DNA of 64,000 nucleotides, from assembly GCA_028278425.1 (NCBI GenBank), contig JANQEJ010000193.1, positions 1 through 64,000 of the forward strand, in the 5' to 3' direction. A program made the translations under genes and the position numbers. Source of the DNA: Planctomycetota bacterium (lineage in GTDB: Bacteria > Planctomycetota > UBA1135 > GCA-002686595). The notes under the pieces were generated by a model. The model made no database searches, was not told where the DNA came from, and saw nothing but the letters and a program-made list of their open reading frames with translations. Below, one piece after another: positions 1 through 16,121 of the stretch. Position 1 is the first letter of the stretch, and each line of letters begins with the position of its first letter.

Positions 1-2417
1 ACGACGTAGGTCGTCGTCGCCTGGATCGGACGTCCGATGGTCACGGGCCCGGGCGCCACTCGGTCGCACGTGGACCAGATCGTCGTCTCCGTCGGACCGT
101 AGAGGTTCCAGAGCTCGTCGCCGCAGCTCGCGAGCTCCTCCGCGAAGTCGCGCGGCAACGCCTCGCCGCCGCACAGGATCCGCAGCCCGCGCCGCCCGCG
201 CCAGCCGGCGATCCGGAGCATCCGCCACGTCGCGGGCGTGGCCTGCATCACCGTCACGCGCTCGTCGTCGACCAGGCGGCGCAGCCGCGCGGGATCGGAC
301 GCGTCGTCCGCGCTGGCCATGAGCACCGACCCGCCGGCGAGAAGCGGCCCGAAGAGCTCGAGCACGGCGATGTCGAACGAGAGCGTCGTCACCGCGAGCA
401 GGACGTCGTCCGCGGCGATCCCGGGCTCGCGCAGCATCGACTCGAGGAAGTTGACCACGGAGCGGTGCCGAATCCGCACGCCCTTCGGCTGGCCGGTCGA
501 GCCCGACGTGTAGATGACGTAGGCGAGCGCGTCGGGATCGACGTCGACCTCGGGCGGACCCGGGTCCTCGCCGTCGCGGAGGTCGGAGTCGAGCTGGGTC
601 AGCACACGCTCGAGCCCCGCGTCTTCGCGCATGAAGTCCAGGCGCTCCGCGGGAAACTCCGGATCGAGCGGCACGTAGGCCGCGCCGCTCTTCAGCATCC
701 CGAGCAGCGCGCACACGAGGTCGGGCGTCCGCTCCAGCTTCACGCCAACCAAGTCGCCGGGGCCGACGCCGTCGGCGATGAGCTGGTGCGCGAGCCGGTT
801 CGAGCGCGCCTCGACTTCGCCGTAGGTCACGCGCTCCTCGTCCTGCCGCAGCGCGACCGCCTCCGGCGCGCGCCGCGCCATCTCCTCGAACCGCCGGTGC
901 AGGACGAGCGCACCGTCGTCTCCGCGCCGCGGCCCGCGGCTCCACGCCGCGAGCGACTGACGCTCCTCTCCCGTCAGGATCGGCAGCGTCGCGATCGACC
1001 GCCCCGGATCCTCGACCACCGCGTGCAGCAGCGTCTCGAGATGCCCGAGGAACCGCCGCACGGTCGCCGGCTCGAACAGGTCCGCGTTGTACTCGAAGTC
1101 GATGCGGATCGCCTCGCTGAGCACGGTCGCGTAGAGCGTCAGGTCGAGCAGCGTCCCCGCCTGGGCGAGGTTGTATTCCATCTCGACCTCGCCGCCGAGC
1201 ACCTGCTTGTAGCCCTGGAAGTCGACGAAGTTGAACATGACCTGGAAGAGCGGGTTCATGTCCAGTTGCCGCTCGGGCTGCAGCGCGTCGACGATCTTCT
1301 CGAACGGGAAGTCCTGGTGGTCCTGCGCCTCGAGGCTCACGTCGCGCACGCGGCGCAACAGCTCGCGGAAGCTCGGCTCGCCGCCGAGGTCGGTGCGCAG
1401 CACGAGCGTGTTGACGAAGAAGCCGAAGATGCTCTCGAGCTCGGCGCTCCCGCGGTTGCCGACCGGCGAGCCGACCGCCAGGTCGGTCTGGCCCGTCCAG
1501 CGGAAGAGCAGCGCCTTGAACGCGGCGAGGAGGACCATGAAGAGCGTCACGCCCTCGTCGCGCGCGAGCTTGCGCAGCGCGGCGGTGAGCGCTTCGGACA
1601 GGTCGAGCCCCTCGCGCCGTCCGAGCGACCGCCAGTCGCCGCCGCGGGCATGGTCGGTCGGCAGCGCGAGCACGGGCAGGCCGGCGAGCCGCTCCGCCCA
1701 GTACGCGAGGCCGTCCTCGAGCCGCTCTTCCGTCAACCACTCCCGCTGCCAGACCGCGTAGTCCTTGTACTGGATCGGCAGCGGCGGCAGCTCGCCCTCC
1801 TCGCCCTGCAGGAGCGCCGCGTAGCAGACGCCGAGCTCGGCGCCGGTGATCTGAACCGAGAGACCGTCGGCGACGATGTGGTGTACGCACGAGACGAACT
1901 CCCAGTCCTCGTCGCCGAGTCGGATGAGCCGCAAGCGGATCAGCGGCCCCGTCCGCAGGTCGAACGGCGTGAGGACCTCCTGCTCGACGAGGCGCACCCG
2001 CTCGTTCTCGCGCTCCGCCGCCGGCAGGCCGCGCAGGTCGACCGGATCGAGCTTGATCTCGAACGGCGGAACGACGCGCTGCACCGGCTGGTCGTCGACG
2101 ACGTCGAAGACGGTGTGCAGCGTCTCGTGGCGGCGCGCCAGCCGTTGGAACACGCGCTCGAACGCCTCGACGTCGAGCTTGCCCTTGAGCCGCGCCACGC
2201 CGGGGATGTGGTGCGCGGGGTTGCCCGGCTCGAGCTGCTCCATGAACCAGAAGCGCTCCTGCGAGAACGAGAGCGGAAACGGCCCGTCCTCGGGCTTGAG
2301 CGGGCGGATGACCTTCGCGATCCCCGCGGCGCGCTGTTTTTCCTGCAGCTTCCGTTCGAGCAGCTTGCGCTTGGCGGGGGAGAGCTTGGCCAGGCGCCTC
2401 GAGAGCTCGTCGGTCAT
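1..2417 (-). CDS. Non-ribosomal peptide synthetase, C-A(Gly), truncated by window edge
   Basis: This is the first 805 codons of an NRPS that continues beyond position 1. Residues about 40-470 form a condensation domain with the HHIVADG form of the HHxxxDG motif. An adenylation domain follows, with the core YTSGSTGQPKG and the LYGPTETT motif close to the edge. Reading the Stachelhaus pocket by motif alignment to GrsA gives D-I-L-Q-L-G-L-I-W for nine of ten positions. That matches the glycine code as I recall it, so the enzyme should join the upstream polyketide to glycine. The ATG at 2417 overlaps the stop of PKS B (ATGA), indicating translational coupling. The PCP and any release domain lie outside the window. 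The fold and function are certain; substrate is an inference. Confidence 0.95.
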   Translation of the reverse strand, partial: MTDELSRRLAKLSPAKRKLLERKLQEKQRAAGIAKVIRPLKPEDGPFPLSFSQERFWFMEQLEPGNPAHHIPGVARLKGKLDVEAFERVFQRLARRHETLHTVFDVVDDQPVQRVVPPFEIKLDPVDLRGLPAAERENERVRLVEQEVLTPFDLRTGPLIRLRLIRLGDEDWEFVSCVHHIVADGLSVQITGAELGVCYAALLQGEEGELPPLPIQYKDYAVWQREWLTEERLEDGLAYWAERLAGLPVLALPTDHARGGDWRSLGRREGLDLSEALTAALRKLARDEGVTLFMVLLAAFKALLFRWTGQTDLAVGSPVGNRGSAELESIFGFFVNTLVLRTDLGGEPSFRELLRRVRDVSLEAQDHQDFPFEKIVDALQPERQLDMNPLFQVMFNFVDFQGYKQVLGGEVEMEYNLAQAGTLLDLTLYATVLSEAIRIDFEYNADLFEPATVRRFLGHLETLLHAVVEDPGRSIATLPILTGEERQSLAAWSRGPRRGDDGALVLHRRFEEMARRAPEAVALRQDEERVTYGEVEARSNRLAHQLIADGVGPGDLVGVKLERTPDLVCALLGMLKSGAAYVPLDPEFPAERLDFMREDAGLERVLTQLDSDLRDGEDPGPPEVDVDPDALAYVIYTSGSTGQPKGVRIRHRSVVNFLESMLREPGIAADDVLLAVTTLSFDIAVLELFGPLLAGGSVLMASADDASDPARLRRLVDDERVTVMQATPATWRMLRIAGWRGRRGLRILCGGEALPRDFAEELASCGDELWNLYGPTETTIWSTCDRVAPGPVTIGRPIQATTTYV

Positions 2418-14543: not shown

Positions 14544-16121
14544 ATGCCCGACCGGTTCGACGTCCAGACCCTCGCGGACATGACCCGCTTCCACGCCCGG
14601 GAGCGGGGGGATCGTATCGCCCTCGAGTACGAGGGGCGTCAGACGACGTTCGCCGAGCTCGACAAGGGCGCAAGCCGGGTGGCGAACGCGCTCCTCGCCG
14701 ACGGAGTCGCCCCGGGAACCCGCTGCGCGACGGTCACCAAGGACTCCGACGACGTCTGCGAGCTCCAGTTCGGCATCGCCAAGGCCAACGCGGTCATCCA
14801 GGGGATCAACTGGCGCCTGGCGCCGCGCGAGATCGCCTTCATCGTGAACGACGGGGCCGCCGAGGTGCTCTTCGTGCACGAGGAGTTCTTCCCGAAGATC
14901 GAGGCGATTCGGGACGAGCTCAAGACGGTCAAGACGATCATCACGACGGCGGGCAGCCACCCCGAGTGGAGACCCTACCGCGCGTGGCGGGACGCGCAGG
15001 CGGACGACGACCCGAACCTGCCGGTCGATCCCGAGACGGTCGTCGTGCAGATGCACACCAGCGGGACCACCGGGCATCCGAAGGGCGTGTTGCTGCCCAA
15101 TCGCTCGTTCTTCGCGGTGATCCGCTCGATGCACGCGCACGGGAACGAGTGGATCGGCCTCACCGAGGACGACGTCGCATTGCAGGGGTTCCCCCTGTTT
15201 CACATCGGCGGCTTCTGGTGGGCGATCACGTCGCTCAACGCGGGGGCGAAGCACGTGCTGATGGACTCTTTCGTCGGATGGAAGGCGCTCGAGCTCATCC
15301 AGCGGCACGGCGTGACGAAGACCTGCATGGTGCCGGCCATGATGGGGCTCCTGCTGTCGGAGCCGACGTGCAAGGACACCGACTTCTCGTCGCTGACGCA
15401 CATCGTGTATGGCGGCTCGCCGATTCCGGTGTCGCTGCTCAAGCAGTCGATGGAGACCTTCGGTTGCGACTTCGGGCAGATCTACGGGCTCACCGAGACG
15501 GGGAACACCGCCGTGTTCCTCTACCCGGACGACCACCGCGATCTCGAGAGCGAGCGCCTGAAAGCCGCCGGGCGTCCCTATCCCGGCGTTAGGGCCAAGA
15601 TCATCGACGAAGAGGGCAACGAGCTCCCCCCGCGCGAGATCGGCGAGATCTGCCTGCACTCACCCGCGAACATGGTCGGCTACCACAACCGCCCCGATGC
15701 GACCGCCGAGAGCTTGGTCGACGGCTGGGTGCACACCGGCGACGCCGGCTACCTCGACGAGGACGGCTACGTCTACGTCTGCGACCGCGTGAAGGACATG
15801 ATCATCTACGCCGGCGAGAACATCTATCCGGCCGAGGTCGAGAGCGCGGTCTGCGGCCACGAGGCCGTCGCCGAATGCGCGGTCATCGGTGTCCCGGACG
15901 ACCGCTGGGGCGAGCAGGTCAAGGCCGTCGTCGTCCTGAAGCCCGGCGCGAAGGCCAAGCCGATGGAGATCATCGCGCACGCGCGCGGGGAGATCGCGGA
16001 CTTCAAGGTGCCGCGGTCGGTCGACTTCGTCGACGCCCTGCCGCGGACGGCGAGCGGGAAGGTGAGGAAGGGGGAGTTGCGCGAGCCGTACTGGGAGGGG
16101 AGGGAGCGCAGGGTTAACTAA
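14544..16121 (+). CDS. Acyl-AMP ligase (ScoC/FadD10-like)
   Basis: This 525-aa ANL-superfamily adenylate-forming enzyme has the P-loop HTSGTTGHPKG at 171-181, a YGLTETG motif and the C-terminal catalytic Lys in LPRTASGK. It should activate a fatty acid with ATP and load it on a carrier protein. In the sco pathway the ligase acts twice, first on the unsaturated starter and again on the isonitrile acid. No free-standing carrier protein is visible, so the partner is probably the N-terminal ACP of PKS A. By sequence alone it could also be an acyl-CoA synthetase; the context with ScoE and FcoT homologues favours ACP loading. A GGAGG precedes the ATG. A divergent copy of its last 30 or so codons occurs at 34020-34130. 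Confidence 0.92.
   Translation: MPDRFDVQTLADMTRFHARERGDRIALEYEGRQTTFAELDKGASRVANALLADGVAPGTRCATVTKDSDDVCELQFGIAKANAVIQGINWRLAPREIAFIVNDGAAEVLFVHEEFFPKIEAIRDELKTVKTIITTAGSHPEWRPYRAWRDAQADDDPNLPVDPETVVVQMHTSGTTGHPKGVLLPNRSFFAVIRSMHAHGNEWIGLTEDDVALQGFPLFHIGGFWWAITSLNAGAKHVLMDSFVGWKALELIQRHGVTKTCMVPAMMGLLLSEPTCKDTDFSSLTHIVYGGSPIPVSLLKQSMETFGCDFGQIYGLTETGNTAVFLYPDDHRDLESERLKAAGRPYPGVRAKIIDEEGNELPPREIGEICLHSPANMVGYHNRPDATAESLVDGWVHTGDAGYLDEDGYVYVCDRVKDMIIYAGENIYPAEVESAVCGHEAVAECAVIGVPDDRWGEQVKAVVVLKPGAKAKPMEIIAHARGEIADFKVPRSVDFVDALPRTASGKVRKGELREPYWEGRERRVN

Follow-up and report, generated by a model that had tools for sequence, protein, structure and literature searches.

A putative isonitrile-primed PKS-NRPS locus in a planctomycete and related cassettes in other phyla

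Isonitriles bind copper and include potent antibiotics, and the characterised iron-enzyme route to them is mainly actinobacterial. Does that route also operate in other phyla, and can it prime an assembly line of another kind? The question is raised by the first 64,000 nucleotides (here, the window) of a 78,232-base contig, JANQEJ010000193.1 (G000:C347), from a planctomycete genome of 7.83 Mb in 364 contigs, 89% complete (GCA_028278425.1). A first-pass annotation had described at positions 1-16121 an isonitrile cassette, made up of an acyl ligase, an FcoT-like thioesterase and a ScoE-like oxidase, next to two polyketide synthases (PKSs) and a nonribosomal peptide synthetase (NRPS), in a likely planctomycete. 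This observation is confirmed (Table 1), and the host assignment is borne out by the relatives Pla86 (CP036296.1), OFTM77 and DHS20C15, which belong to the same phylum, Pla86 also to the same family. We propose, with a probability of roughly 0.6, that the locus encodes an isonitrile-primed hybrid PKS-NRPS, a reading built on gene content and order, family and clade membership, motifs and the continuation of the NRPS on a second contig.

The cassette enzymes

Although Pfam assigns the oxidase to the TauD family, its closest matches among PDB sequences are ScoE (213 bits), SfaA (186) and Rv0097 (about 179), the best TauD reaching 96. The maximum-likelihood tree of 49 sequences, whose outgroup consists of an E. 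coli TauD sequence and further members from fetched loci, separates a ScoE clade of 34 sequences, the window oxidase among them, from 15 TauD-like sequences, both at 100/100. Structure agrees: with the AlphaFold2 model (pLDDT 91.7) as query, 36 chains of ScoE, SfaA, Rv0097 and MmaE rank above the first taurine dioxygenase (E 4e-33 versus 1e-23). The oxidase is thus ScoE-like, as first annotated, and groups neither with taurine nor with other dioxygenases; an ordinary TauD identity was rejected on the grounds of tree, fold and co-occurrence with FcoT. Within the ScoE clade, the actinobacterial ScoE/SfaA/Rv0097 group comprises nine sequences (100/100). The other 25, including that of the window, come from Planctomycetota, Pseudomonadota, Cyanobacteriota, Bacteroidota and Myxococcota, and may form a grade rather than a clade, since their joint branch has a support of 84/36.

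The thioesterase scores 167 bits against Pfam FcoT (cut-off 27) and matches SAV606 (108 bits) and Rv0098 (70 bits) in the PDB. It retains all columns invariant across SAV606, Rv0098 and the cassette FcoTs and falls among the latter in the tree, not outside them, which upholds its annotation as FcoT/ScoD-like. The FcoT tree repeats the split between actinobacterial and other sequences, weakly (80/90), and one planctomycete copy (L038) falls on the actinobacterial side with a long branch. CmiS1, a homologue of SAV606, adds glycine to an enoyl thioester, and for both relatives glycine addition and hydrolysis are established (PMC11284099).

The ligase, annotated as ScoC/FadD10-like, forms with 26 ligases from cassette loci a single clade of 27 sequences (100/99), apart from the genome's own ligases, in a tree built without FadD10 and ScoC themselves; the closest other ligase in the genome is 40% identical to it. 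In the PDB, generic acyl-CoA ligases outscore FadD10. FadD10 also ranks below generic ligases for the ligase of the Corynebacterium cluster, so that this ranking does not discriminate and was not used. The ranking and the Pfam assignment of the oxidase are what would speak for an ordinary TauD-like oxidase with a thioesterase and a ligase of lipid metabolism, incidentally close to a PKS. Both the oxidase and the ligase trees, the fold, the co-occurrence and the recurring gene order described below already contradict this explanation, to which we give next to no credence.

The active site is less simple. In ScoE numbering, transferred by alignment and with residue roles as published (PMC7949033), all ScoE-family sequences keep Tyr96, Tyr101, His132, Asp134, Arg157, Lys193, Asp198, His295 and Arg310; none has an equivalent of TauD Arg266, and TauD-like sequences have Gly or Ser at 157. 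The window oxidase accordingly carries the iron triad with Tyr101, Arg157 and the substrate-binding residues Tyr96, Lys193 and Arg310, and belongs to the wider ScoE family. The first-pass statement that the iron triad and the Arg and Lys positions of ScoE are conserved stands for the triad, Arg157, Lys193 and Arg310, but not for Arg195, which is Gln; in addition, Tyr97 is Phe and His299 is Thr. The combination of Arg195 and His299, which marks the actinobacterial ScoE subfamily, is therefore absent. The same holds across the non-actinobacterial sequences, with Phe or Pro at 97, Gln or Thr at 195 (Arg in one case) and a variable residue, never His, at 299. In ScoE, product formation is abolished by R195Q and reduced by Y97F, and no succinate is formed by H299Q (PMC7949033); by alignment, the non-actinobacterial enzymes naturally carry changes that disable or impair ScoE. 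They are probably active, since the other determinants are kept and since they always occur with FcoT, apart from one orphan copy in this genome. Isonitrile formation is thus a likely activity of the window oxidase as predicted from its sequence, and the non-actinobacterial enzymes may anchor 2-oxoglutarate in a different way.

The orphan copy is a second ScoE-family oxidase (L034:11222-12124, on G000:C220 at about 19.2-20.1 kb), which shares 53% identity with the window copy across its full length, is nearer to ScoE (267 bits) and has no FcoT in its locus. A stop had been reported inside it, but the reading frame runs uninterrupted through 300 residues and can be aligned from end to end, so that we do not call it a pseudogene. 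About 6 kb away lie genes that, judged by eye, resemble a ZnuA/ZnuB-type metal transporter.

The altered residues also bear on a reading in which the cassette makes a β-amino acid, or an imine-derived amine, as the starter. In the cremimycin starter route an FcoT-type glycine-adding thioesterase is likewise linked to a PKS, and CmiS2, a flavin adenine dinucleotide (FAD) enzyme, gives a β-amino acid (PMC11284099), whereas here a ScoE-family iron oxidase stands in its place. This oxidase, lacking Arg195 and His299, might stop after one oxidation. We nevertheless rate this reading as improbable: all other ScoE determinants are kept, including Lys193, Arg157 and Tyr96, which are absent from TauD-like enzymes, the oxidase is nested in the ScoE family, and no FAD-dependent CmiS2-type oxidase was found beside the FcoT among the six cluster genes and the neighbours scanned.

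The assembly line and its proposed chemistry

The cassette runs directly into the assembly line. Oxidase and FcoT, FcoT and PKS1, and PKS2 and NRPS overlap by 4 nucleotides each, and PKS1 and PKS2 are 12 nucleotides apart, an arrangement that suggests co-transcription and translational coupling of the cassette with the assembly line. The called frames are supported by a GC content at third codon positions of 0.93-0.95 on the called strands.

By Pfam, PKS1 contains a ketosynthase (KS), an acyltransferase (AT), a dehydratase (DH), an enoylreductase (ER), a ketoreductase (KR) and two carrier stretches, with intact active-site motifs. Its AT carries the HAFH motif, an established mark of malonyl-CoA. 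The N-terminal acyl carrier protein domain (ACP) occupies the place of the free ACP ScoB, is found with the same motif before the KS in relatives, and is expected to be the loading site. PKS2 has a KS, a KR and a carrier. Its counterpart in OFTM77 has an AT remnant only, as if the AT were being lost. Of the three AT matches in the genome, one lies in PKS1; PKS2 is assumed to be loaded by an AT in trans.

The NRPS is cut by the contig end and very probably continues on contig G000:C305 (L035), where a frame at the contig end is open for 3,649 residues. The two ends share 12 bases, in frame, and the NRPS of OFTM77 is matched by the window piece at residues 7-820 and by the C305 piece at 818-4390. 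Because the overlap is only 12 bases, a genome search using the window's first 150 bases could not locate C305, which was identified from spacing and from collinearity with the OFTM77 NRPS. According to Pfam and motifs, the joined protein reads C-A1-MT-PCP-C-A2-PCP-E-C-A3-PCP-R, where C is condensation, A adenylation, MT methyltransferase, PCP peptidyl carrier protein, E epimerase and R the terminal reductase. The adenylation codes, read against a GrsA sequence, are DILQLGLIW (A1), DLTKVGEVG (A2) and DTENIGTVV (A3), which presumably stand for glycine, an Asn-like and a Lys-like residue, respectively. A terminal reductase is also present in the NRPSs of Pla86, DHS20C15 and OFTM77. Those of Pla86 and DHS20C15 are shorter and differ in their codes, which makes the peptide the variable portion and the isonitrile-PKS section the conserved one. 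ABC-transporter-like genes lie about 9 kb beyond the NRPS on C305.

In the pathway that we propose, the ligase would load an α,β-unsaturated acid on the N-terminal ACP of PKS1, and FcoT would add glycine at the β carbon and hydrolyse the thioester to give a free N-carboxymethyl-β-amino acid. The ScoE-family oxidase would then convert the glycyl group to an isonitrile with Fe(II), O2 and 2-oxoglutarate, a reaction by an iron enzyme established for ScoE (PMC7949033), and the ligase would reload the β-isocyano acid on the ACP. These four steps are modelled on characterised homologues, whereas the following ones, and the entry of the isonitrile acid at PKS1, are suggested by domain order. PKS1 would add and fully reduce a malonyl-derived C2 unit, and PKS2, loaded in trans, would add a second unit that is left as the β-hydroxyl. 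The NRPS would join three amino acids, the first with a code that fits glycine and with a methyltransferase, the second epimerised, and the terminal reductase would release an aldehyde or an alcohol. A C4 starter, as in Sco, would lead to a hydroxylated isocyano-octanoyl chain on an N-methylglycine-led tripeptide.

Entry at PKS1 is proposed because its N-terminal ACP lies directly before the KS and the genes are coupled. The main rival, unlikely in our view, has PKS1 act before the cassette and make the unsaturated chain for FcoT, the isonitrile acid then passing to PKS2 or the NRPS. The precedent is cremimycin, in which a PKS supplies the nonenoyl chain to CmiS1 (PMC11284099), and the direct coupling of FcoT to PKS1 would suit this order. 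With intact DH and ER motifs, however, the end product of PKS1 should be saturated, the ACP adjoining its KS looks like a loading site, and a ligase for free acids is always present. On a further route, the isonitrile acid would skip the PKS and be attached directly to an NRPS residue, with the PKS supplying a different portion of the molecule. This could draw on the terminal reductase, as in the isonitrile lipopeptide class, and on the third adenylation code, presumably Lys-like, Lys being what ScoA acylates. It is very improbable, given that the cassette has no ACP beside it other than the one fused to PKS1, and that the NRPS begins, after a PKS module, with a module whose code is glycine-like.

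Table 1. Features of the cluster, in window coordinates
Feature	Position	Strand	Basis
Acyl ligase (AMP-binding), cassette type, ScoC-like role	14544..16121	+	Pfam AMP-binding; 100/99 ligase clade
Divergent ligase/oxidase intergenic region, probable shared control region	14319..14543	.	Gene layout
ScoE-family Fe(II)/2-oxoglutarate oxidase/decarboxylase	13383..14318	-	PDB sequence match, tree, residues, fold
FcoT-type bifunctional thioesterase (ScoD/CmiS1/SAV606 relative)	12829..13386	-	Pfam FcoT, PDB matches, tree, invariant columns
PKS1, ACP-KS-AT-DH-ER-KR-ACP, fully reducing	5996..12832	-	Pfam, intact active-site motifs
PKS1 N-terminal ACP, GFDSL serine	12548..12790 (approximate bounds)	-	Motif at residue 47
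PKS2, KS-KR-ACP without AT domain	2414..5983	-	Pfam finds no Acyl_transf_1
NRPS start (condensation domain, larger part of adenylation domain 1), truncated at contig end	1..2417	-	Pfam

A consensus scan of the divergent intergenic region gave no sigma-70-like promoter, and tRNA and Rfam searches gave no match bearing on the cluster. A subtilase (16845-18506) lies beside the cluster, and two TIR-domain proteins (18744-19871, plus strand; 24411-25415, minus strand) are encoded within 6 kb of each other, with an FG-GAP protein between them. At 60139-63456 on the minus strand, a serine/threonine protein kinase is fused to WD40-type repeats, as is typical of planctomycetes.

Recurrence in other genomes

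A scan of one genome per species gave 61 loci; its patterns derive from planctomycete-type sequence, so that the non-actinobacterial side is sampled best. All 28 oxidases at 36% identity or more have an FcoT in the same locus, as against none of the 33 whose identity is 33% or lower. This genome has a single FcoT, and in the phylum FcoT is present in 4 of 392 genomes; the oxidase-FcoT neighbourhood is far beyond chance. Taken in the first-pass annotation as the hallmark of isonitrile lipopeptide clusters in Actinobacteria, the trio of ligase, FcoT and oxidase is known there but is found by the scan in other phyla as well.

Eight other planctomycete loci (L038, L039, L043 from Pla86, L044 from DHS20C15, L045, L051, L054 and L055) keep the full order, with the ligase divergent from oxidase-FcoT-[ACP-KS-AT-DH...] and, where the locus is long enough, C-A thereafter, so that the layout is shared by at least eight planctomycete genomes besides this one. 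The link between cassette and PKS is therefore not accidental, and a chance neighbourhood was rejected. The annotated tie to a polyketide module thus holds in Planctomycetota but is not unique to them, since PKS-linked cassettes also occur in Methylobacter, where it is followed by a single protein that combines carrier, ketosynthase, C, A, carrier and thioesterase domains, in Streptomyces and Lentzea, with KS-AT-DH-KR-ACP after the cassette, and in the cyanobacteria Okeania and Symploca, with PKS genes nearby.

Several of the loci are of interest in their own right. Three methanotroph loci (L048, L052, L053) have the order ligase-oxidase-FcoT; in L048 a carrier/ketosynthase/C/A/carrier/thioesterase protein and then an outer-membrane efflux gene follow, and a new isonitrile lipopeptide of methane oxidisers is a possible product. 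In Methylomonas koyamae (L042:2422-4278), two tandem ScoE-family oxidase genes precede FcoT. Actinobacterial cassettes of Streptomyces, Lentzea and Catenulispora (L062, L063, L064, L065) are joined to PKS modules, not to an NRPS, and L065, which has an ER, may be amycomicin-like. In Pseudomonas agarici (L056), a ScoE-family oxidase is accompanied by a very divergent FcoT, and the fetched stretch contains no recognised cassette ligase.

Five points weigh against the proposed isonitrile-primed PKS-NRPS. The window oxidase carries Gln195 and Thr299 where ScoE needs Arg195 and His299 (PMC7949033), PKS2 has no AT domain, and the join of C347 and C305 is based on 12 bases and collinearity. In OFTM77, contig C139 has ligase-FcoT-PKS1-PKS2-long NRPS without an oxidase between ligase and FcoT, and the set of ligase, oxidase and FcoT lies, with no PKS, on another contig of that genome, C39, so that the cassette is split (loci L009 and L010/L040). 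Finally, the cluster and its relatives are known from genes alone.

Known isonitrile systems and significance

The isonitrile lipopeptide, or chalkophore, clusters (scoA-E of Streptomyces coeruleorubidus, sfa of S. thioluteus, Rv0097-Rv0101) share with this locus the ligase, FcoT, ScoE-family oxidase, ACP and NRPS, as well as a terminal reductase domain, in ScoA there and on C305 here. They differ in that a free ACP leads straight to a Lys-activating NRPS in the sco type, whereas here the ACP is fused to PKS1, one or two PKS modules intervene between cassette and NRPS, the first adenylation code is glycine-like, and the oxidase lacks Arg195 and His299.

The amycomicin/aerocyanidin epoxy-isonitrile pathway, the subject of work by Zheng in 2024, reportedly includes a thioesterase and an iron enzyme and is not known to include an NRPS. 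According to PMC13273461 and PMC9967187, the type I PKS of an amycomicin-like cluster is a single, fully reducing module (KS-AT-DH-ER-KR-ACP), and the epoxide and ketone groups depend on P450s. An isonitrile step and a fully reducing type I PKS appear to be common to that antibiotic pathway and the present cluster, in which, by contrast, an NRPS with a reductase follows. No cytochrome P450 was found among the window genes scanned; on C305 the Pfam scan covered the NRPS. An isonitrile chain on a PKS is thus probably not new as such.

In the literature searched, outside which most subscription journals lie, there was no mention of an isonitrile-primed PKS-NRPS with reductive release in Planctomycetota, of its conservation in that phylum or of ScoE-family oxidases without His299. 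The new isonitrile scaffold suggested by the first-pass annotation is a prediction. We see about even odds for the wider proposition that the part of the ScoE family without His299, and nearly always without Arg195, is functional in five phyla, and that in Planctomycetota it primes a PKS-NRPS to give isonitrile-tipped, chain-extended lipopeptide aldehydes or alcohols, an undescribed class of scaffold.

Few natural products are known from Planctomycetota. The locus and its relatives represent a conserved version of the isonitrile cassette in this phylum, and related cassettes occur in Cyanobacteriota, Pseudomonadota, Bacteroidota and Myxococcota. That enzymes outside Actinobacteria naturally lack His299 and, nearly always, Arg195 is a direct test of the current model of 2-oxoglutarate binding in ScoE, and for work on product and mechanism Pla86 is a named relative with a finished genome.

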